DNA from: Arenibacter sp. F26102
Lineage (GTDB): Bacteria > Bacteroidota > Bacteroidia > Flavobacteriales > Flavobacteriaceae
Length of the DNA: 64,000 nucleotides
Reading direction: 5' to 3'
Assembly (NCBI RefSeq): GCF_023015865.1
Contig: NZ_JALKBC010000011.1
Span: 62,001-126,000 of the forward strand
The position numbers and the translations under genes were made by a program. Positions 43,141 to 52,362 of the stretch are shown piece by piece (positions within the stretch are counted from its first letter, which is position 1; each line of letters starts with the position of its first letter). Under the pieces are notes generated by a model. That model was given only the letters and a program-made list of their open reading frames with translations, was not told where the DNA came from and searched no databases.

Positions 43141-44580
43141 CTATCGTTCTCCGATAATTGCAACAACCTTCTCCATAACCTCATCCCTACCCAATAAAAC
43201 ACCTGTAATCGTTGGTTGCACCTGGTAATGGGGTACAATTCCTCTATCTATAAATTCATAATCTTTAACCGCTGTATAATAGGCCATCAAAGGAATCCCC
43301 AGTTTCAACTTGGAGTTCGGGAGGGTTACTATGGCAAATGCGCCACTATTATTCCCGTAATATCCACCACCGGTTTCATCCCCTATGAATGTGGCTCTAT
43401 GTAAGTAATGTGCTACGGCACTGAACTCGGAGGTTACCGAGAAACATGCGCCATCTATTAGTACAAATACCTCACCGGTAAACCGATTCTCTTGAGGGAT
43501 TTGAATATGTAGGTTTTCATTGTGTTCCCATCGAAACTCCCCATCCTCGGTCTGGGTAATCAATGACCTTAACTGATCATAACCCTCTGGTAATTGGGCA
43601 TGCTCCATAAAAGAAAATCTTTCGTTGGTTGCCAGTACAAGTTTATCGTAATACCTAAATTCGGTATCCATTAAATAGGACAATAACAAGGTTCCATAGC
43701 CATCCTTCCCTCCTTCATTACCTCTCAAATCCAATATTAAATTCTGAATGTTTTTATCGTTGATAGTAGCAAAAGATTGCTTCAAAAACCCTTCAAAATT
43801 ATATTTCTCGTCGTTTGGCCAAAACGTTCGTAATGTCAAGAGAGCGGTATTCCCATCCTTGAACTCCAATTGATAAGGTATTTCATTCATTTCTTCGTCA
43901 TCAATTTCCTTTATCCTTTGGTAAGAGACCACCGGTAGATCCATAATACCATTCCGCCGGTGGTCCATATATGTAATACTAATTTTGTCTTGGCCCTTTC
44001 CTTCCTCCAAATAAAAATTAGAAAATAAGGCGCTGAAGTATCTATTCAGTTCATAATACTTGAAGCTCTGGTTATGTCCGTCAGAAAACAGATTGTTCAA
44101 CAACCCGTTAATAATATCCTTTATCGCCATACCATTTATAGCGATAATTTCCGTTCCTGGTTTAATTTTAATGGAACTGTCATAGCTGGAGAGCACATAA
44201 GCTTTATGTCCTTCCAAAAATAATTTTAAGGGAAATAGGTTTTCCGTATTGTAATAATATATAAACCCATTATCCTCTGAAGGCATTAGCTTGGTGTGTC
44301 CACATCCAATTTTTGCCACTATAGGATTCAATTTCTTATAAAACTCCTGCTGGGTCAGTGGTCCAGCGAGCGCTTTGGCAACCACATTAAAGCTGTCATC
44401 CAAAACAGATTTGTCTTCATATCTATAGATCCCGGGGTGTGCCTCCTCCAATGCCGTCCTGAATAGTTGAAAATCTTCCTTTAACTGGGGAAGTGTTAAG
44501 ACACTTTGTCCTGCTACGTTCAGGCCGCCAAAGAGTTGAGCAAACATAAAACCACACTGTAATATTACTTTTGCTTTCAT
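43141..44580 (-). CDS. S41-family (C-terminal processing) peptidase
   Basis: A 479-residue exported serine peptidase. A signal peptide (about 1-24, ends near VAGQS) is followed by a helical N-terminal part, a PDZ-like segment (PGTEIIAINGMAIKDIING) and the tail-specific protease domain (about 250-460) with LILDLRGNEGGKDG and VFVLIDGACFSVTSEFSA (nucleophile Ser), then FIGDETGGGYYGN. It is convergent with the large PAS sensor (40-base gap), and its start faces the sensor kinase at 45154 across a 573-base divergent region. In Bacteroidota such peptidases occur as stand-alone secreted enzymes. The substrate is unknown. Confidence 0.9.
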   Translation of the reverse strand: MKAKVILQCGFMFAQLFGGLNVAGQSVLTLPQLKEDFQLFRTALEEAHPGIYRYEDKSVLDDSFNVVAKALAGPLTQQEFYKKLNPIVAKIGCGHTKLMPSEDNGFIYYYNTENLFPLKLFLEGHKAYVLSSYDSSIKIKPGTEIIAINGMAIKDIINGLLNNLFSDGHNQSFKYYELNRYFSALFSNFYLEEGKGQDKISITYMDHRRNGIMDLPVVSYQRIKEIDDEEMNEIPYQLEFKDGNTALLTLRTFWPNDEKYNFEGFLKQSFATINDKNIQNLILDLRGNEGGKDGYGTLLLSYLMDTEFRYYDKLVLATNERFSFMEHAQLPEGYDQLRSLITQTEDGEFRWEHNENLHIQIPQENRFTGEVFVLIDGACFSVTSEFSAVAHYLHRATFIGDETGGGYYGNNSGAFAIVTLPNSKLKLGIPLMAYYTAVKDYEFIDRGIVPHYQVQPTITGVLLGRDEVMEKVVAIIGER

Positions 44581-44818
44581 AAATTTTAATATTTCAAATG
44601 ATTACACCCAAAAAATACCCTCTTCACATAATCCCATCTTATGGACGTCCCCAGTGTAGAGAAAACTAATATTCAAGTTTACAAAGGTCAAGATATAGGT
44701 AAGACCATGCAATCACATAAGAATGTGGTATTTAATTAGGGGGATTAAAGACTTGGCAAATAATCATTAAATAATTATGTCGCCATAATCTATTTCCAGA
44801 TTTGAGAAAGTCCATTTT

Positions 44819-44864
44819 CACATATATATGCTATTTCCTGAATTGCCAACTTGGTCTACATTTG
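44819..44864 (+). promoter_or_regulatory. Regulon promoter A, before the sensor kinase
   Basis: CACATATATATG (44819-44830) contains the inverted repeat CATAtaTATG. Exactly 30 bases later comes TTTG (44861-44864) inside TACATTTG, a perfect TAnnTTTG -7 box. The same CATAnnTATG-30-TTTG layout precedes the response regulator, the PKD lipoprotein and the small-protein unit. The downstream TTTGTCCTG is identical to that of site C. The kinase ATG is 290 bases further on, leaving a long leader. Confidence 0.7.
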
Positions 44865-44971
44865 TCCTGTTCGATTGCTTGGTTGTTTAAGTAAATTGAA
44901 AAAAATTCCTTAAACAGCTAAGCTCATTAAAATGAAAAGGGTTTATTCATCAATCAAAAAAAATCACCATC

Positions 44972-45037
44972 ATGTTAGCACTTTTTATTCTTCTATTAAA
45001 ATTATTAATGGACCTGTGGATTACAATATTATTTTAA
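44972..45037 (+). CDS. Possible 21-residue hydrophobic leader peptide
   Basis: A small open frame within the long leader of the kinase mRNA: MLALFILLLKLLMDLWITIL ending in F then stop. It reads as one membrane helix. Its start is preceded by AATCAAAAAAAATCACCATC, and the same AATCAAAAAAAAT stretch precedes the 41-residue gene at 51329, which makes translation more believable. It could be a small membrane protein, a leader peptide or chance. Confidence 0.3.
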   Translation: MLALFILLLKLLMDLWITILF

Positions 45038-45153
45038 ATAAAACTTGAATCTATAACCACATGAAACGACTTCCTAGACAACAAATCATTTAAGATTTTT
45101 TATAGATTGGATGTCAAATCTTTGCGTAATTTTAATATAAACCATGTGGTTGC

Positions 45154-48100
45154 ATGAGCATAAGAATTCTTTTTTGCTTGTTATGTTTCCAAACCTATAT
45201 TTTTGGACAGAACTCTTATGTTTTCAATAGATTTTCTACCGCAGATGGTTTGGCCACCAACAAGGTGAAATGTGTTTGGCAGGACCCAAAAGGTTTTCTC
45301 TGGATTGGCACCGAGGTGGGTATACAGCGTTTTGATGGCAGAAAATTTTTATCCTATGTTGGTCCTGAAAATTACCAGCTACCTCCAAGCATCGGCGTTG
45401 ATCAAATTTTAGATGCTGGCAATGGCGACCTATGGCTCTTGCAAGGAGGACAGATCGGGAAATTCAATACTGTAGATTTTCATTATACCTCCGTTCCAAT
45501 TCGAAGTTTTGGCAGCATCCCCCCTAGATCAGAATTCAAGCTCTATGTAGACAGTAAGAATCAAGTATTCTTATGCGCTTCCAAATATGGCCTATTATGG
45601 TACGATGACAATTCCAAGTCATTTGTAGAATCCAATTTACCTATAAAAATTCCCAGAGGTTGGGGAGTTATATCCCTTTTTGAGGATAAGGAAAAAGGGG
45701 AATATTGGATCTGTAGTGAACAGGGTCTTGCCGTATACCGTAGTGCCAGTGGGGAGGTATTTCACAGGCACAATAATCCGGAGGGCATACCCCTATTGAA
45801 CGACAAGGCAATTACAAACTCCGGGGATTTTATTAAAGACAAAAATGGTACTTGGTGGCTTACGTATTGGGACTACAGTCCACACAAGGAACACCCCGTT
45901 CTTCTACATTTCGACCCAAATACCAACAAAATCCTACCGGATACCTTGGGAAGCAAATGGGCTACAAATAAATATACGGTTCTAAAGCAAATTCTGGAGA
46001 CCAGTTCCGGACAGATATGGATAGGAGGGGAAAATTCATTGTTGAGCTATGACAATGACCTTCAAGGTTTTTACCAACATCTTAAGTCAAACCCTCTCGA
46101 GTTCGACATTAAATGTAATCAGACAAGACATATCTTTGAGGACAGGGAAGGCAATATTTGGTTGAGTACGGAGAATGGGCTTTATGTTATGAATCCCAAC
46201 CAGAAGGATGTTTACAGTCTTGTGGTCATTGATGGCCTAGGGCTGGACTCACCTGTAAATGCCATACTGGAAACCCAGGACAAGGAAAACTGGATTGGAA
46301 CTTGGGGCAAGGGTATTCTATTTTATAATGATAATTTCATAAAATTGGATGCTAATCCCTATGTGGGACTGGGGAATGAATCCATAACCAAATTCTCTGC
46401 CATCTGGGACCTTCAACAGCACAGTGAATCCGGATATGTTTGGTCTGCCTGTCAAGGAGGCGCATTGGCCGTTTTTGACCCTAATAATAAAAAGGCTTTA
46501 CACTGGTTGCTTCCACCTGTTTTTAGTAATTCTACCATTCGGCAGTTAAAAGAAGACCACAATGGAAACCTTTGGTTTGGTACCCAAAGCGGGCGTTTGG
46601 TAAAATGGAACAAAAGCGATCCCATTGCCGATGAAAACTTTGAGGAGTTACATCATTTCAACACCATTATTTACAGACTCCATGTAGATGATCAAGGTAG
46701 GTTATGGGTGGGGACGCACAAGCAAGGCGTATATGTTATTGATGTGAACACCAATGAGATCTTATTTCATTTTAATAAGGAGTTTAGTGACAGTTATGGG
46801 ATTGCGGACAATACTATTTTCGATATCCAGCAATATAATGACAGTGTTTTTTTCTTGGGGACCGAGGCATTGAATATACTCAACATTAAAACTGCCAAGG
46901 TTAAAAAAATTACTTCCTACGAAGGCTTATATGGATCAAGGGTGTTGCAACTGATGATTGATCACGAAGGCATTGCTTGGATGATTACCAGCAATGGTCT
47001 TAGCAGTTATAACTACGACAAGAATATCATTAGTTCCTATAGCAACCTCCATGGGGTAATCTATGCGGAAAAGACCAACAGTGCCAAATGGATGATGCAA
47101 AACGGGGAGATATGGTTTGGTGGTGAGGATGTAGTGTTTGGTTTTTCGCCCGAAAAGCTGAATTTTAAACATAAACCCCCAAAAGTGAGCATTACCGATT
47201 TTAAGCTGTTCAATACTTACTTGCCTGTAGATTCGATAATGACCCAAAAAGAAATCATTTTTAATCACTATCAAAATTCATTTACTTTCTATTTTTCCGC
47301 CCTGAGCTTTTCCCATCAAAAAAAGTTACAATACTTCTATCGCATTCCGGGAGTTAACAAAGATTGGGTAAAGGCCGAAAGAGATCTGGCAGCAACCTAT
47401 ACCACTATGCCCTCAGGAAAATATACCTTCCAAGTAAAATGTATGAACCTGCAGGGACTTGAGCCCGATGAGATCACCAGTGTCGATTTCCGAATACTGC
47501 CGCCATTCTATCTCACTTGGTGGTTTATCTCCTTAATCTCATTAACGGTAATTGGAATTGCCTATTTTATGTATCGACTTAAGGTAAACCGCATATTGGC
47601 GGTTGAAAACTTAAGGAACAAAGTGGCAAGAGACCTACATGATGACATGGGCTCTACCCTGAGCACTATAAACATCCTCAGTTCTATGGCCAAAAGCAAA
47701 ATGAACCATGATACCGTAACCAGTGGCAACTACCTTTCTAAGATTACCGATAACAGCCAAAGGATGATGGAGGCCATGGATGATATTGTTTGGAGCATTA
47801 AACCGGACAACGATAACATGCACAGGGTAATTGCAAGGATGAGGGAATACGCTACTGGGATTTTGGAGGCGCGGAACATAGAGTTCAACTTTGAGGTAGA
47901 TGATAAAATAAATGATTTAAAACTGGATATGGAAGCTAGGCGCGACCTCTTTCTAATTTTCAAGGAAGCCATCAACAACATTGCTAAATATTCCCAAGCC
48001 AAACGGGCAGAGGTGCTTTTTACCTATCGGGATAGGTGGTTAAAATTGCAGATCATGGACAACGGAATAGGCTTCGAGGTAGAAAAAGTAGATAATGGAA

Positions 48101-48210
48101 ATGGTCTGGACAATATGGCTAAAAGGGCATCCAATCTAAAAGGACAATTGAAAATAGACAGTAAGACAGATCTGGGAACAGAAATCTGTTTGGGCATACC
48201 GGTAAGATAA
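45154..48210 (+). CDS. Two-component sensor kinase with Reg_prop beta-propellers (NarX/HisKA_3 class)
   Basis: A 1018-residue protein. It has a signal peptide (about 1-18, ends FGQNS), then a periplasmic sensor of about 14 Reg_prop repeats (for example GFLWIGTEVGIQRFD, GNIWLSTENGLYVMN, GNLWFGTQSGRLVKW; about 20-680), a Y_Y_Y domain (about 700-785), one membrane helix (about 787-808) and a cytosolic HisKA_3 domain (ARDLHDDMGSTLS, His about 828). The ATPase domain (about 920-1018) has the N box KEAINNIAKYS and G boxes DNGIGFE and NGLDNMAKRA. It phosphorylates the NarL-type regulator encoded 71 bases downstream. In Bacteroidota this kinase form senses glycans or envelope signals; the ligand here is unknown. 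Confidence 0.93.
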   Translation: MSIRILFCLLCFQTYIFGQNSYVFNRFSTADGLATNKVKCVWQDPKGFLWIGTEVGIQRFDGRKFLSYVGPENYQLPPSIGVDQILDAGNGDLWLLQGGQIGKFNTVDFHYTSVPIRSFGSIPPRSEFKLYVDSKNQVFLCASKYGLLWYDDNSKSFVESNLPIKIPRGWGVISLFEDKEKGEYWICSEQGLAVYRSASGEVFHRHNNPEGIPLLNDKAITNSGDFIKDKNGTWWLTYWDYSPHKEHPVLLHFDPNTNKILPDTLGSKWATNKYTVLKQILETSSGQIWIGGENSLLSYDNDLQGFYQHLKSNPLEFDIKCNQTRHIFEDREGNIWLSTENGLYVMNPNQKDVYSLVVIDGLGLDSPVNAILETQDKENWIGTWGKGILFYNDNFIKLDANPYVGLGNESITKFSAIWDLQQHSESGYVWSACQGGALAVFDPNNKKALHWLLPPVFSNSTIRQLKEDHNGNLWFGTQSGRLVKWNKSDPIADENFEELHHFNTIIYRLHVDDQGRLWVGTHKQGVYVIDVNTNEILFHFNKEFSDSYGIADNTIFDIQQYNDSVFFLGTEALNILNIKTAKVKKITSYEGLYGSRVLQLMIDHEGIAWMITSNGLSSYNYDKNIISSYSNLHGVIYAEKTNSAKWMMQNGEIWFGGEDVVFGFSPEKLNFKHKPPKVSITDFKLFNTYLPVDSIMTQKEIIFNHYQNSFTFYFSALSFSHQKKLQYFYRIPGVNKDWVKAERDLAATYTTMPSGKYTFQVKCMNLQGLEPDEITSVDFRILPPFYLTWWFISLISLTVIGIAYFMYRLKVNRILAVENLRNKVARDLHDDMGSTLSTINILSSMAKSKMNHDTVTSGNYLSKITDNSQRMMEAMDDIVWSIKPDNDNMHRVIARMREYATGILEARNIEFNFEVDDKINDLKLDMEARRDLFLIFKEAINNIAKYSQAKRAEVLFTYRDRWLKLQIMDNGIGFEVEKVDNGNGLDNMAKRASNLKGQLKIDSKTDLGTEICLGIPVR

Positions 48211-48222
48211 AGGTCTTTTTAA

Positions 48223-48266
48223 CATATTTATGTGATTTTATTTTATGGGATTCGGACTTAACTTTA
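48223..48266 (+). promoter_or_regulatory. Regulon promoter B, before the response regulator
   Basis: CATATTTATG (48223-48232), then TGATT, and exactly 30 bases after the repeat TTTA (48263-48266) in TAACTTTA, one base off the -7 consensus. The start codon at 48282 is only about 15 bases further, so the mRNA from here would be almost leaderless. It implies a separate, autoregulated transcript for the regulator inside the kinase-regulator operon. Confidence 0.6.
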
Positions 48267-48281
48267 CAAAAAGCGACAGTT

Positions 48282-48914
48282 ATGATAAGTGTAGTAATCT
48301 ATGAGGATAATCCCCAATTTCGTGAGGGACTTACCATGTTGATCAATGGTAGCGATGGATTTTCCGTTTTGGCAACGTACAAAAATTGCAACAATGTTGC
48401 CGAAGAAGTGAAAAAATGGTCACCCGATGTAGTATTGATGGATATCAACATGCCAGGGACAGACGGACTGGAAGGCCTTAAGAAAATAAGGGCAGTAGAT
48501 GCAGAAGTTAAAGTATTGATGCTAACCGTCTTTGACGACAATAAAAATGTTTTTGAGGCTTTGAGAAACGGGGCCAATGGTTATTTGTTGAAGAAGACCC
48601 CTCCGGCCAAACTATTGGAATATATACAAGATGCCACCTTGGGGGGTGCTCCCATGACCTCCTCCATTGCCACACAAGTACTAAAGATGTTCCAGGTAAT
48701 TCCGCAGACCAAGAACCAGGACTATTGCCTTAGTGAACGGGAAACACAGGTACTGCAACTTTTGGTAGATGGGTTCAGCTATAAAATGATTGCTGCAGAG
48801 CTCTTCATCGCAATAGACACCGTACGGTCGCACATTAAAAAAATCTACGAAAAACTTCATGTTAACAGCAAGAGTGAAGCTGTAGCAAAGGCTTTTAAGG
48901 ATAGGCTATTATAA
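48282..48914 (+). CDS. NarL/FixJ-family response regulator
   Basis: A 210-residue regulator. The receiver domain (1-120) has the acidic pair E8/D9 (YEDNPQF), the phospho-acceptor D54 in VVLMDINMPGTDG, the conserved Thr in VLMLTVFDD and the Lys in YLLKKTPP. The output domain (about 145-205) is a LuxR-type helix-turn-helix with LSERETQVLQLLVDGFSYKM and DTVRSHIKKIYEKL. It is the cognate partner of the Reg_prop kinase. Dimers of such regulators bind short inverted repeats, which fits the CATAnnTATG sites in front of the kinase, the regulator itself, the PKD lipoprotein and the small-protein unit. Confidence 0.95.
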   Translation: MISVVIYEDNPQFREGLTMLINGSDGFSVLATYKNCNNVAEEVKKWSPDVVLMDINMPGTDGLEGLKKIRAVDAEVKVLMLTVFDDNKNVFEALRNGANGYLLKKTPPAKLLEYIQDATLGGAPMTSSIATQVLKMFQVIPQTKNQDYCLSERETQVLQLLVDGFSYKMIAAELFIAIDTVRSHIKKIYEKLHVNSKSEAVAKAFKDRLL

Positions 48915-48955
48915 CATAAACTTGATTTAAACCTACAAATTAGCGCTCAAATTCA

Positions 48956-48999
48956 CATACTTATGCGATTGTAGGTACTAAAGTTCCTGACTTCCTTTG
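48956..48999 (+). promoter_or_regulatory. Regulon promoter C, before the PKD/beta-helix lipoprotein
   Basis: CATACTTATGCGATTG (48956-48971), then exactly 30 bases after the repeat TTTG (48996-48999). It shares CACATACnTATGCGATTG with site D and TTTGTCCTG with site A. The start codon at 49039 lies 40 bases further. Confidence 0.7.
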
Positions 49000-49038
49000 T
49001 CCTGAAAAAAATTGAAACAATAACTCAATATCAGGATA

Positions 49039-51132
49039 ATGAAAACAAATCTAATTCTACTTACCATCTTCTTCTTAATGATAATTGGCTGTTCTGAGGA
49101 CGACAGCAGTGAAATTCCAGCAAACACTTTGGAGGCAAAGGTTGTCAGCGAGTATCAAGGAGAAATCCTTACCGGTGAGACCTTGGTCTTGGATGGATCC
49201 AAATCCAAGGATAAGGCTGGTAAACCATTCCAGTACTTATGGAAAATAAAGGCCAAGCCCAACGGCAGTTTAACCGAGTTGGAGGAAGAAGTAACGGCCA
49301 AACCTAAATTTACCCCAGACAAAGCGGGGAATTATTCGGTGGAACTAAAAATTTTCAATTCCGAATTCTATGATACGGATGAACTTGCCATTTTAGTAAA
49401 AGACAGAGAAAACCCTCCCTTACAGGAAACTATAATTATTTCGGAAAACATTACGGAACGTCTTCATTTGGCCAATGTATTTGAGGACCCTGGCAAATTC
49501 GATTATTTGGTAACAAGTGATATACATGTAACGGCCCTACTTACCATAGATCCAAACGTAGTTATTGCCTTTGAACAAAATACCGCTATGTATATAGACA
49601 ATCCTGGGGCCATCATAACAACCCCAGCGGCCAGCTCGTTTATCACCTTTACGGGTAAGAATAAGGTTCCTGGCTATTGGAAGGGATTGATTATAAATTC
49701 CAATAGTCCCTTAAACAAGTTAGACCGGGTTACCATTGAATACGGAGGTGGTGCCATTGCCCATGGTATGGAGGTTGCTACTGGTTTGGGTATCGCCAAC
49801 GAGGGTCCGGGCCACCTTAACCTAGTCTCCTCGATTATTCAGTATAGTGCTGCCTTTGCCATGGCCGTTGAAGTTGGAGCTAAGTGGAACACCGAATCCT
49901 TTAATGCCTATAGGAACAACAAAAAAATTATGAGGATACCTGCCTCACAGTTTGGGGTTGTATCCAGCTTGTCCGAATTTCAAAATAATGAAGAAGACAA
50001 TATAGAAATCATCGGTGACCAAATCGATGATACTGAAGAAACCGTATGGAGCGATTTTTACAACGGCTCGGGTCTTTCTTTAGATGCAAAATACATTGTA
50101 AAGGGAAAAGTAGAGGTTATTTCCGGGCTAAGGATTTTGGGTGGCCTTGAATTGTACATGGACAAGGACTCTGAAATCAACATTACCAAGAGAGGCTATT
50201 TAATTGCCCTTGGCAGTCCTCAGGACCCCATTAAATTCCTTGGAAATGAATCCGTAAGCGGAGGTTATTGGAAAGGTATCTCCATTATGTCCAACGACAT
50301 GAAAAACGAATTGGACAACGTAGAAATACACAATGCCGGAAGCGAAATTATGGACGGATTGCAGTATAAGACTGCCGTTGGATTGGGAGGGGCCAATGAG
50401 GCTAAATTAAAGTTATTTAGCTCCAAAATCGTAGGCAGTGGTGGCAATGGAATTTACCTTGAAAACGGCGCTGAACTTGTACACATAGACCAAATTAGGT
50501 TTCATGAAAACCAAGGTCCGGCCATTACCATGGCTGCCAACCAGGTGAAAAAACTTAACAATGCCACAGGAATGGAATTTATAGGCAACGGTCATAATGG
50601 AGTTGAAATTCTAGGATCTACTTTGTTCAGTCCGGATGGAAGCGAGACTGTTTGGCCCTCCCTGCATTTTGGCGCTAGCTATTTGGTGAGTGGCAATTTG
50701 GGCATCCAATCCGGCTTAAAAATACTTCCCGGAGCTGTATTTAAGTTTGCCGAAGATAAAATGTTAGGGGTGTTCCCAAACGGATATTTAATTGCCAAAG
50801 GCACAGATACCAACAAGATTGTTTTTACTGGGGCCAATGCCAGCAAAGGTTTCTGGAACGGAATCCGTATTCAATCGGACAACATTAAAAACCTGCTAGA
50901 CCAAACGGAGGTGCTCTACGCCGGAAAATCTGAAATGCCAGGGGTAGGCAAAATAGCTAGTATTGGTCTTGACGGGGATTACTTGGCCAATTTAACCATC
51001 ATAAATTCAAAAATTGCTCATGGACATGGCTACGGAATTGCCTTGGAAGACAACAGAACGTCCTTGAACTCGGATTATGACATAGTAAATATTTTTGAGG
51101 ACCTAAGCCTTGGAAATGTATCCCTACCCTAA
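49039..51132 (+). CDS. PKD-like / beta-helix surface lipoprotein with three internal repeats
   Basis: A 697-residue lipoprotein with signal and lipobox MIIGCSEDD (Cys near 18). Residues about 35-125 form a PKD-like Ig domain (FQYLWKIKAKPNGS, then AGNYSVELKIFN). The rest is built of three modules of about 200 residues, each with the order VF-fEd-LIA-G-I-FtG-GYW-GI-I-S-LD-vEi-AG. Examples are KVPGYWKGLIINSNS, SGGYWKGISIMSND and SKGFWNGIRIQSDN. This suggests a right-handed beta-helix. The protein probably sits on the cell surface and binds or displays something. Site C directly precedes it, so it should be switched on by the adjacent two-component system. Confidence 0.88.
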   Translation: MKTNLILLTIFFLMIIGCSEDDSSEIPANTLEAKVVSEYQGEILTGETLVLDGSKSKDKAGKPFQYLWKIKAKPNGSLTELEEEVTAKPKFTPDKAGNYSVELKIFNSEFYDTDELAILVKDRENPPLQETIIISENITERLHLANVFEDPGKFDYLVTSDIHVTALLTIDPNVVIAFEQNTAMYIDNPGAIITTPAASSFITFTGKNKVPGYWKGLIINSNSPLNKLDRVTIEYGGGAIAHGMEVATGLGIANEGPGHLNLVSSIIQYSAAFAMAVEVGAKWNTESFNAYRNNKKIMRIPASQFGVVSSLSEFQNNEEDNIEIIGDQIDDTEETVWSDFYNGSGLSLDAKYIVKGKVEVISGLRILGGLELYMDKDSEINITKRGYLIALGSPQDPIKFLGNESVSGGYWKGISIMSNDMKNELDNVEIHNAGSEIMDGLQYKTAVGLGGANEAKLKLFSSKIVGSGGNGIYLENGAELVHIDQIRFHENQGPAITMAANQVKKLNNATGMEFIGNGHNGVEILGSTLFSPDGSETVWPSLHFGASYLVSGNLGIQSGLKILPGAVFKFAEDKMLGVFPNGYLIAKGTDTNKIVFTGANASKGFWNGIRIQSDNIKNLLDQTEVLYAGKSEMPGVGKIASIGLDGDYLANLTIINSKIAHGHGYGIALEDNRTSLNSDYDIVNIFEDLSLGNVSLP

Positions 51133-51254
51133 TGAAATATGGTATATATAACGTGCCTATCCTTTTTCCATTATTAACAATGAGCGGTATAAAATAAATG
51201 TTATTTAGGATGTGATTGGCGGCATAAATTGGATAGGGATCCATCAATCTTCCA

Positions 51255-51298
51255 CATACATATGCGATTGTGGGCCGTGGAATTCCAAACGATCTTTG
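51255..51298 (+). promoter_or_regulatory. Regulon promoter D, before the small-protein / GIN lipoprotein unit
   Basis: CATACATATGCGATTG (51255-51270), then exactly 30 bases after the repeat TTTG (51295-51298). With site C it shares CACATACnTATGCGATTGTnGG. The ATG of the 41-residue gene is at 51329. Confidence 0.7.
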
Positions 51299-51328: not shown

Positions 51329-51454
51329 ATGAAAGCATTTGATAATTACCGAAGAATACCCACAGAATCTAATAAACATGTCTTCTTTTCAAAAACGAAA
51401 TACGGCAAAAGAAGTCAATGGTCGGCCTTAAGACGTTTCACGGCCGCTTATTAA
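51329..51454 (+). CDS. Small basic protein (41 residues), unknown function
   Basis: It starts at MKAFDNYRRIPTES and ends SALRRFTAAY. It is rich in K/R and aromatic residues, with no signal peptide. Reasons to call it: it is the first frame after promoter D; it has a purine-rich AT leader (AATCAAAAAAAAT) also seen before the small frame at 44972; and the stop is followed at once by a hairpin (51462-51489). A longer frame from 51212 starts upstream of the promoter and is rejected. Possible roles include a nucleic-acid-binding peptide, a toxin-like peptide or a regulator of the system; none is shown. Confidence 0.55.
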   Translation: MKAFDNYRRIPTESNKHVFFSKTKYGKRSQWSALRRFTAAY

Positions 51455-51520: not shown

Positions 51521-51613
51521 ATGAAAAATCTAGGTATTGAATTTTACAGAAAATGTATATACGTTATATATACCATTTTTCTAATCTATTTACTGATATC
51601 AGCAAAGAAATAA
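51521..51613 (+). CDS. Possible 30-residue membrane miniprotein
   Basis: An open frame MKNLGIEFYRKCIYVIYTIF followed by LIYLLISAKK. It has a basic amphipathic start, one hydrophobic helix (about 13-27) and a basic tail, the layout of a single-span small membrane protein. It ends 20 bases before the GIN lipoprotein start. The frame itself is short enough to be chance; the layout and position make it worth keeping. Confidence 0.4.
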   Translation: MKNLGIEFYRKCIYVIYTIFLIYLLISAKK

Positions 51614-51633: not shown

Positions 51634-52362
51634 ATGGGTTCTACATCAAAAATAAGTTTAGTAATTGCCTTTTCTATTCTACTATGGTCCTGTGAAAAGG
51701 ATACTATTACGGCCTCCTCTGAAATTACCACTAAGGACTTTGAATTCTCTGGCTATACTTCCTTGGAAGTTAATGATAATTTTAAGGTATACATAGACTT
51801 TTCGGAAACCGAGGAAAAATTGAGAGTTCAGGCGAACGACAATCTTCACGAATATGTCATAGTAAACAAGGAAAGCAACAAGTTAACCGTGAAACTGGAC
51901 AATGATCTTAGCATAAAAGGAAAGGAAACCTTAAACGTGTTTATTACCACCAAGAAAATCAATAATTTTACTATTAAGGGTAACACAAAATTGGTATTGG
52001 AAAATCTTTTGGAAACAGATAATCTAAAAATACATCTAACAGGGAATACCTTTATTTCCGGCCCTTTGGAGGTAGAAAGCCTTGATGTGGATGCCACAGG
52101 AAACTGTATGGTAGATTTTTCAGGAAGTGTAAAAACTATGGATGTGGAGCTAAAAGGGAACTCTGAAATATCAGATTACGACCTCAGCATTGAAACGCTA
52201 AAAATTGACCTCTCCGGTAACAGCAATGCCTATCTTACGGTAAACAATTCCATTTCAGTCGATGCCAGTGGAAATAGTGTGCTATCCTATAAGGGCAATG
52301 CCACCATTATACATCAGAAATTGTCCTCAAGTTCTAAAATCGTAAAAAAGGATAATGGTTAG
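51634..52362 (+). CDS. GIN-domain (DUF2807, putative auto-transporter adhesin head) lipoprotein
   Basis: I chose the ATG at 51634 (MGSTSKISLVIAFSILLWSC), giving 242 residues with a lipobox Cys in LLWSCEKD; an earlier in-frame ATG at 51553 would hide the signal peptide. The mature part is a stack of short beta turns with repeats such as LKIHLTGNTFISG, LDVDATGNCMVDFSG, MDVELKGNSEISD and KIDLSGNSNAYL, typical of the head GIN domain (DUF2807), a beta-helix-like fold found in many Bacteroidota surface lipoproteins. It ends the unit that begins at promoter D, so it is probably also under the two-component system. Confidence 0.9.
   Translation: MGSTSKISLVIAFSILLWSCEKDTITASSEITTKDFEFSGYTSLEVNDNFKVYIDFSETEEKLRVQANDNLHEYVIVNKESNKLTVKLDNDLSIKGKETLNVFITTKKINNFTIKGNTKLVLENLLETDNLKIHLTGNTFISGPLEVESLDVDATGNCMVDFSGSVKTMDVELKGNSEISDYDLSIETLKIDLSGNSNAYLTVNNSISVDASGNSVLSYKGNATIIHQKLSSSSKIVKKDNG

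Follow-up and report, generated by a model that had tools for sequence, protein, structure and literature searches.

A probable autoregulated two-component regulon with a fixed operator-promoter geometry in Arenibacter sp. F26102

We analyzed a stretch of 64,000 nucleotides from Arenibacter sp. F26102 (contig NZ_JALKBC010000011.1; hereafter the window, whose positions are used throughout), which very probably carries an autoregulated two-component regulon with a CACAT-N4-ATGTG operator and a TTG-N20-TAnnTTTG promoter. The candidate circuit comprises a propeller-type sensor kinase, a NarL-type response regulator and targets among which are lipoproteins and tiny proteins. An earlier note on this DNA had proposed such a regulon from four repeats of the form CATAnnTATG, and the comparison of related loci supports this reading: a palindrome lies before the regulator or the kinase gene in 68 of 70 loci, the number of sites tracks the regulator gene, and the predicted DNA-reading helix of the regulator is conserved.

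Operator-promoter sites in the window and in the genome

The window contains the decamer CATANNTATG four times and no more, at 44821, 48223, 48956 and 51255, just where the repeats had been claimed, and the exact gap of 30 bases to a -7 box was borne out at each of them, with TTTG at 44861, 48996 and 51295 and TTTA at 48263. The combination of decamer, 30 bases and TTTG or TTTA was thus observed four times against a mean of 0.062 in shuffled sequence, and none of 1000 shuffles reached four. By itself the decamer is weak evidence, with a shuffle mean of 1.53 in the window and four copies reached in 6 of 100 shuffles. The spacer bases vary between the window sites. The bases GATT(G) reported after the repeat are present at three sites; their reading had to be amended, as they include the -33 TTG of the promoter. 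The additional stretch common to two sites is TTTGTCCTG, found at 44861 and 48996.

All four sites are real, but the count in the window is five, because a minus-strand site before the gene of an S41-family peptidase had been overlooked. The list of targets was incomplete in the same way, lacking this peptidase gene and an unlinked target on another contig. As the fifth site reads into the S41 peptidase gene, the region 5' of the kinase gene contains two oppositely oriented operators.

The genome scan that had been proposed as a check depended on the pattern employed. CATANNTATG with a loose spacing of 26-34 bases was rejected as a genome-wide marker, since the reversed control reached the same number of matches, 46; a longer element was therefore required. 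The pattern CACATANNTATGNGATT-N25-TTTG produced 11 matches with up to three mismatches (7 for the reversed control) and six with up to two (1 for the control), the six being the four sites, the fifth site of the window and one site on another contig. The full element picked out candidate targets in this way and was not found at many unrelated promoters of the genome, the outcome that had been named as speaking against a regulon. The sixth site is followed by an open reading frame (ORF) of 40 residues and by a gene whose product is a membrane protein carrying a class III cyclase domain.

Conservation of the palindrome at orthologous loci

Orthologous loci were collected with the kinase as query, and the best 80 of 98 were retained, which together with the window made 81 loci. 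The 80 came from nine Arenibacter genomes (L072-L080), A. certesii (L081), Kriegella, Yeosuana, Prolixibacteraceae, Chitinophagaceae, Cyclobacteriaceae and others. The regulator was contained in 71 of the 81; the ten without it in the DNA examined were left out of the regulator counts. Palindromes were scored as the letters matched out of 12 in CACATANNTATGTG, and a score of at least 10 was taken as a pass.

Upstream of the regulator (from 150 bases before to 20 after the start), 60 of 71 loci passed, compared with 12 of 1420 shuffles, none of which scored above 10. Upstream of the kinase (250 nucleotides) the figures were 45 of 77 loci and 19 of 1540 shuffles; the Arenibacter kinases count as misses here, because their site lies 330-560 nucleotides upstream. 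Among the 70 loci that could be measured for both genes, the palindrome preceded one or the other in 68 and both in 34. In the window itself, a site stands before each of the two genes. The kinase operator with the 30-base gap was present in the window and in 9/9 of the Arenibacter loci L072-L080 (330-560 bases upstream, 560 in L078), and with a gap of 29 bases in A. certesii and Kriegella. When one rule for arms and spacing was applied to the window, L163 and L072-L151, we obtained 251 sites, while the reversed palindrome yielded 3. The site before the PKD/beta-helix lipoprotein gene of the window was also detected before its orthologues in 8/9 of the loci L072-L080, in A. certesii and in Kriegella; in L077 the corresponding site is followed by an S41 peptidase gene instead. 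The site before the small-protein/DUF2807 unit was found in all nine.

Anatomy of the element and promoter geometry

Outside Arenibacter, 76 sites from 70 loci, for whose selection TTTG was required, gave the full element as TTT-CACAT-A-W-T-Y-ATGTG-ATTG-N20-TAnnTTTG. In the matrix of these sites, the TA of the -7 box is kept at 61% and 76% and the TTG at 97%, 91% and 75%, neither of them having been a selection criterion, and the -33 bases ATTG are kept at 75-97% per base. We also tallied the gap to TTTG in an unbiased set of 466 oriented sites from the same 70 loci, taken without a prior 30-base rule: a gap of 30 occurred 76 times, 29 occurred 21 times, 28 twice and 31 once. A second, smaller peak at 44-46 bases comprised 30 rows, of which 22 were kinase promoters, mainly of Chitinophagaceae (L090, L091, L097, L101, L102, L104, L111-L119, L126, L128, L129, L131, L136, L143 and L149). 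In the rows of this peak the palindrome is usually followed by GTTTT, not ATTG, and the -7 box has the full TA in 22/22 kinase rows. Judged from its sequence, this is a second architecture that places the operator near -58.

In Flavobacterium, TAnnTTTG is placed at -12 to -5 in the available portions of two promoter studies (PMC9723704, PMC6847099). With this numbering, the palindrome is centred on -43.5, and the TTG within GATTG spans -35 to -33, the place of the -33 element. According to the same portion of PMC6847099, the -33 motif is in general much less evident in F. johnsoniae, so that regulator contact may be a further reason why it is so strongly conserved at the present sites. In the genome of strain F26102, a full TA is found in two of the six -7 boxes (TACATTTG and TAACTTTA). 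The position of a class II activator is -41.5. The computed centre lies near it, which is consistent with the activator position that the earlier note had assigned to the repeat.

Link between the element and the response regulator

We compared 40 genomes (G000-G039), 18 of them of the genus and the own genome included, with the regulator called at an E-value of 1e-50 and the element at up to two mismatches. The regulator was detected in 11 of the 18 genomes of the genus and in none of the 22 others. The 11 genomes with the regulator contained 2-10 sites each, 70 in total against 5 for the reversed control, and the seven genomes of the genus without it contained 0, 1, 0, 1, 0, 0 and 0 sites. 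All 29 genomes without the regulator together gave 9 matches, compared with 14 for the control.

In a sample of 395 genomes of the phylum, scanned with up to one mismatch, there were 48 matches in 37 genomes and none for the reversed control. All four genomes with an orthologue of the regulator (more than 300 bits) had one to four matches. A regulator cut-off of 1e-60 mixes these four genomes with 20 genomes carrying distant regulators, of which three have matches. The distant regulators compared below (47-57% identity) are 20 of the 25 hits under 300 bits, the own-genome paralogues L261-L263 not being counted.

The DNA-reading helix TVRSHIKKIYEKLHVNSKSEAVAKAF is nearly invariant in 70 orthologues, namely 70 of the 71 regulators, the split regulator of L090 having been left out of the alignment. 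Its residues R182, S183 and K186 align with K188, V189 and K192 of NarL, which contact bases. The three distant regulators with Ser183 (L242, L243 and L258) have upstream palindromes matching 9, 10 and 10 of 10 letters, and the 17 of 20 without Ser183 have a differing helix and a palindrome of at most 8 of 10. As L243 and L258 have a perfect palindrome of their own, the specificity would be common to a wider group of regulators.

The distribution of the regulator within the genus is patchy, yet close relatives exist in loci of Prolixibacteraceae and Chitinophagaceae; going by these sequences, horizontal transfer of the regulator is possible.

Genes of the proposed regulon in Arenibacter sp. 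F26102

The fifth operator-promoter, CACATTCTTATGTGATTG...GACCTTTG, is located on the minus strand at 44682..44727 (read from 44727 to 44682) and had one mismatch in the own-genome scan. It reads into the gene of the S41-family peptidase (43141..44580, minus strand; 479 amino acids; Pfam PF03572, 63.1 bits, cutoff 24), and its counterpart also precedes the orthologous S41 gene in other Arenibacter. All other features lie on the plus strand. The kinase operator-promoter CACATATATATGCT occupies 44819..44864, with the -7 box at 44857-44864, and the leader behind it contains a hydrophobic ORF of 21 amino acids with a conserved reading frame (44972..45037). The sensor kinase of 1018 amino acids (45154..48210) consists, according to a domain scan, of a Reg_prop propeller, Y_Y_Y, HisKA_3 and HATPase_c. 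Directly before the kinase start (45100-45154) there is a CAAATCTTTGCGTAATTTTAATATAAACCA stretch that is well conserved in ten aligned Arenibacter sequences.

The regulator operator-promoter AACATATTTATGTG, with the -7 box TAACTTTA, is located at 48221..48266, and its palindrome is kept before orthologous regulators. It precedes the gene of a NarL-type response regulator of 210 amino acids (48282..48914), which consists of a receiver and a GerE helix-turn-helix domain (Response_reg 91.7 bits and GerE 63.6 bits, each over its cutoff) with the recognition helix TVRSHIKKIYEKLHV. The protein belongs to neither of the named equivalogs compared (NarL model, 150.8 bits, cutoff 250; MadR, 124.6 bits, cutoff 300), and the solved regulators that scored best for it were NarL, ChrA, VraR and DesR. 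The own genome encodes three further regulators with E-values below 1e-15 and 25-32% identity.

The third plus-strand site, CACATACTTATGCG with the -7 box TTCCTTTG (48954..48999), lies before the gene of a PKD/right-handed beta-helix protein of 697 amino acids (49039..51132), which was called a lipoprotein from its sequence; Beta_helix scored 30.8 bits (cutoff 25.9) and PKD 21.6 bits, the latter under its cutoff of 27. The fourth, CACATACATATGCG with the -7 box GATCTTTG (51253..51298), heads a unit whose first ORF encodes a conserved basic protein of 41 residues (51329..51454). It is followed by an ORF for a hydrophobic peptide of 30 residues (51521..51613) and by the gene of a DUF2807 (head GIN/Toastrack) lipoprotein (51634..52362; PF10988, 116.9 bits, cutoff 24.2), the start of which was set at an internal ATG that gives a lipoprotein-like signal.

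Tiny proteins behind the operator

The ORFs of 41 and 30 residues are under purifying selection, with median ratios of nonsynonymous to synonymous substitution rates (dN/dS) of 0.14 (44 pairs) and 0.10 (42 pairs), respectively. The 41-residue ORF was found in 10 of the 40 genomes searched, the own genome included, and the regulator is present in all ten. Of ten Arenibacter sequences compared, nine align with the 21-amino-acid ORF of the kinase leader and keep it open, L076 having an early stop; the median dN/dS of this ORF is 0.23 (35 pairs). A leader ORF of 38 amino acids at 44932 was discarded as the conserved one, since among the sequences listed it occurs only in the window and, with 39 amino acids, in L072.

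In G000, G003 and G006, similar ORFs of 39-40 residues stand behind an operator located on another contig. The cyclase gene comes next in G000 and G006, and no cyclase homologue was found within the 2201 bases examined around the ORF of G003. In A. certesii an ORF of 39 residues stands between the operator and a DUF2807 homologue (51% identity), and in G007 and G016 operator and cyclase homologue are present with no recognizable tiny ORF between them. In an alignment of ten tiny proteins, M1, E13, W31 and R36 are invariant, and the two groups are just 25-31% identical to each other. NCBIfam contains no family for the proteins of 41, 30 and 40 residues. Structure prediction for the 41-residue protein yielded a low-confidence helix (mean predicted local distance difference test score 65.3, predicted template modelling score 0.25), from which no conclusion was drawn.

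In other families, differing tiny ORFs are often the first after the site; among 160 sites that have an ORF of any kind within 140 bases, a tiny ORF came first at 68, a figure that includes Arenibacter and stems from mechanical ORF calls without a control. Mainly in Chitinophagaceae, the operator is followed by another, distinct family of tiny proteins that begin alike (MKGKYIT, MNKKFIT, MSGKFIS), recorded in L107, L114, L126, L131 and L139 (minus strand). A C-terminal motif with W and RR[FY], common to tiny proteins of other families, was spotted by eye.

Recurrent putative targets

Genes behind the sites were clustered by BLAST links, the sites having been admitted under a loose criterion (a 30-base gap and as few as 8 of 10 arm letters) that biases a gap tally made with it towards 30, and some members only were scanned with Pfam. 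DUF2807 lipoproteins followed a site in 26 loci, with differing gene orders. Arenibacter and the window account for 10 of these loci; of the 16 members outside Arenibacter, eight were scanned and 8/8 contained DUF2807. S41 peptidases were found behind 15 sites distributed over 14 loci, 10 of these sites belonging to Arenibacter or the window, and RHS-repeat lipoproteins behind 12 sites in 10 loci. Further clusters were PKD/beta-helix lipoproteins (11), cytochrome c lipoproteins (11), sigma-70/extracytoplasmic function-like factors (10) and outer-membrane barrel proteins (7); the RHS-repeat, cytochrome c, sigma-factor and barrel clusters are each named after one scanned member. Since the gene order varies by lineage, the association is carried by the site, not by synteny.

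In other Arenibacter, cytochrome-c-like genes (L165, L169, L188 and L229) are likewise preceded by the site, and in five of these genomes (L224-L228; one member scanned) an alpha/beta hydrolase gene has a weaker site upstream, CACATCTTTATGCGATTT...GTTTA or a variant of it.

Discussion

The arrangement suggests the following mechanism. The propeller kinase (45154-48210) would phosphorylate the NarL-type regulator (48282-48914), a dimer of which would bind CACAT-N4-ATGTG, centred at -43.5 and immediately upstream of the -33 TTG. The bound regulator would then recruit or position the Bacteroidota housekeeping polymerase at TTG-N20-TAnnTTTG. The predicted targets in the own genome are the kinase, the regulator, the S41 peptidase, the PKD/beta-helix lipoprotein, and the unit of two tiny proteins and the DUF2807 lipoprotein, with a second tiny protein ahead of the membrane protein with the cyclase domain as sixth target on the other contig. 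We infer phosphotransfer, direct binding and activation rather than repression from the genes and sites described above.

Some findings weigh against this proposal. Two of the 70 loci, L130 and L151, lack a site of at least 10 of 12 letters. Ser183 is not an absolute rule, given that two of the 70 orthologues have Thr183 (L148 and L151), of which L148 still has a palindrome of 11 of 12 letters before the kinase. Four of the six own-genome -7 boxes lack the full TA (TTCCTTTG, GATCTTTG, GACCTTTG and TTACTTTG), and in the 22 kinase loci of the second architecture TTTG lies 44-46 bases from the palindrome instead of 30. The CAAATCTTTGCGTAATTTTAATATAAACCA stretch before the kinase start may be a second kinase promoter, operator-free and regulator-independent. 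Finally, one or two matches, against none for the control, were present in 33 of the 391 phylum genomes without an orthologue above 300 bits; this rules out an element exclusive to close orthologues across the phylum, and other regulators may read it.

An autoregulated activator has to be weighed first against a repressor acting at the same operator, in which case the regulator at the -33 region would block polymerase until a signal released it. Autoregulation fits either sign, and a palindrome abutting the -33 TTG makes a steric block possible. We nevertheless consider repression unlikely: the operator reaches neither the -33 TTG nor the -7 box, the gap is mostly exactly 30 bases, which is needed for activation and not for repression, and imperfect -7 boxes as at four of the six own promoters are usual in activator-dependent promoters. 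NarL-type regulators, moreover, mostly activate from such positions.

Less probable still is that the element represents a sigma-factor or general promoter type instead of the operator of a NarL-type regulator. It does come with TAnnTTTG, and the 33 phylum genomes just mentioned could be read in this sense. However, the number of sites follows the regulator gene, exceeding the control (70 to 5) in the 11 genomes that have it and falling below it (9 to 14) in the 29 that do not, and kinase genes are also preceded by the palindrome with 44-46 bases between it and TTTG. In addition, the account of F. johnsoniae promoters in the available portion of PMC6847099 mentions a weak -33 motif only and no such palindrome. 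Recent duplication or chance in an AT-rich genome can practically be dismissed: although shuffles reach four copies of the bare decamer, none did so with the spacing, and the element is kept at the same distance in other families of the phylum, outside the genus, with spacer bases that differ among sites.

In the literature searched, whose coverage excludes most subscription papers, we found no description of such a regulon, with a separate propeller kinase and a NarL-type regulator, in Bacteroidota, and no paper containing the palindrome in any of six written forms. Kept from family to family, a single operator with a fixed promoter geometry leads to its regulator and to a list of its targets, brings unannotated tiny proteins to light and predicts targets in genomes carrying the kinase-regulator pair. 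This landmark, retained among distant members of Bacteroidota, opens an undescribed gene-control circuit to direct testing and offers a natural test of class II activation of the unusual Bacteroidota polymerase.

With the NarL family (NarL, UhpA, FixJ, RcsB) the regulator shares the architecture of receiver and GerE domain and a palindromic site, and it differs from them in its own apparent specificity, CACAT-N4-ATGTG, and in the Bacteroidota promoter. Bacteroides hybrid two-component systems with Reg_prop sensors have a similar periplasmic sensor of propeller and Y_Y_Y, coupled to an AraC-type regulator, whereas the present system has a NarL-type regulator that is a protein distinct from the kinase. 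The promoter part agrees with the Bacteroidota -33/-7 housekeeping promoter, as outlined in the portions available of the studies cited above, in having TTG from -35 to -33 and TAnnTTTG from -12 to -5, and departs from the F. johnsoniae account in the strongly kept ATTG.

There is also a close likeness to the cell-envelope stress systems LiaFSR/VraTSR of Firmicutes, with which the circuit was compared by its proteins. Both combine a NarL-type regulator and a HisKA_3 kinase, and both have a Toastrack-domain protein among the targets, here DUF2807 in the window and in the scanned members outside Arenibacter. The Toastrack domain unifies DUF2807 with DUF4097 and DUF2154 and, as stated in the portion of PMC11237479 available, has repeatedly been tied to LiaRS/VraSR envelope-stress systems. 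These targets, together with a regulator of the type that includes VraR and a HisKA_3 kinase, make a surface or envelope-sensing circuit the most likely role by analogy. In contrast to LiaFSR/VraTSR, the sensor is a large Reg_prop/Y_Y_Y propeller (LiaS model, 65.7 bits, cutoff 450), tiny proteins and S41 peptidases are added, and a search confined to 9 proteins of the window and 20 downstream proteins detected none of LiaF, LiaI, PspA and PspC. On account of the propeller sensor and the lack of LiaF, PspA and PspC among the scanned genes, we describe the circuit as Lia-like in its working and do not class it as a Lia system. Tentatively, it could be a Bacteroidota-wide counterpart of these envelope-stress systems, in which lineage-own tiny proteins stand behind a near-invariant pair of regulator and operator; in Arenibacter this would be one basic family of about 40 residues, placed before a Toastrack lipoprotein and before a membrane cyclase, with feedback on the kinase or adjustment of the adjacent gene's product as its possible roles.

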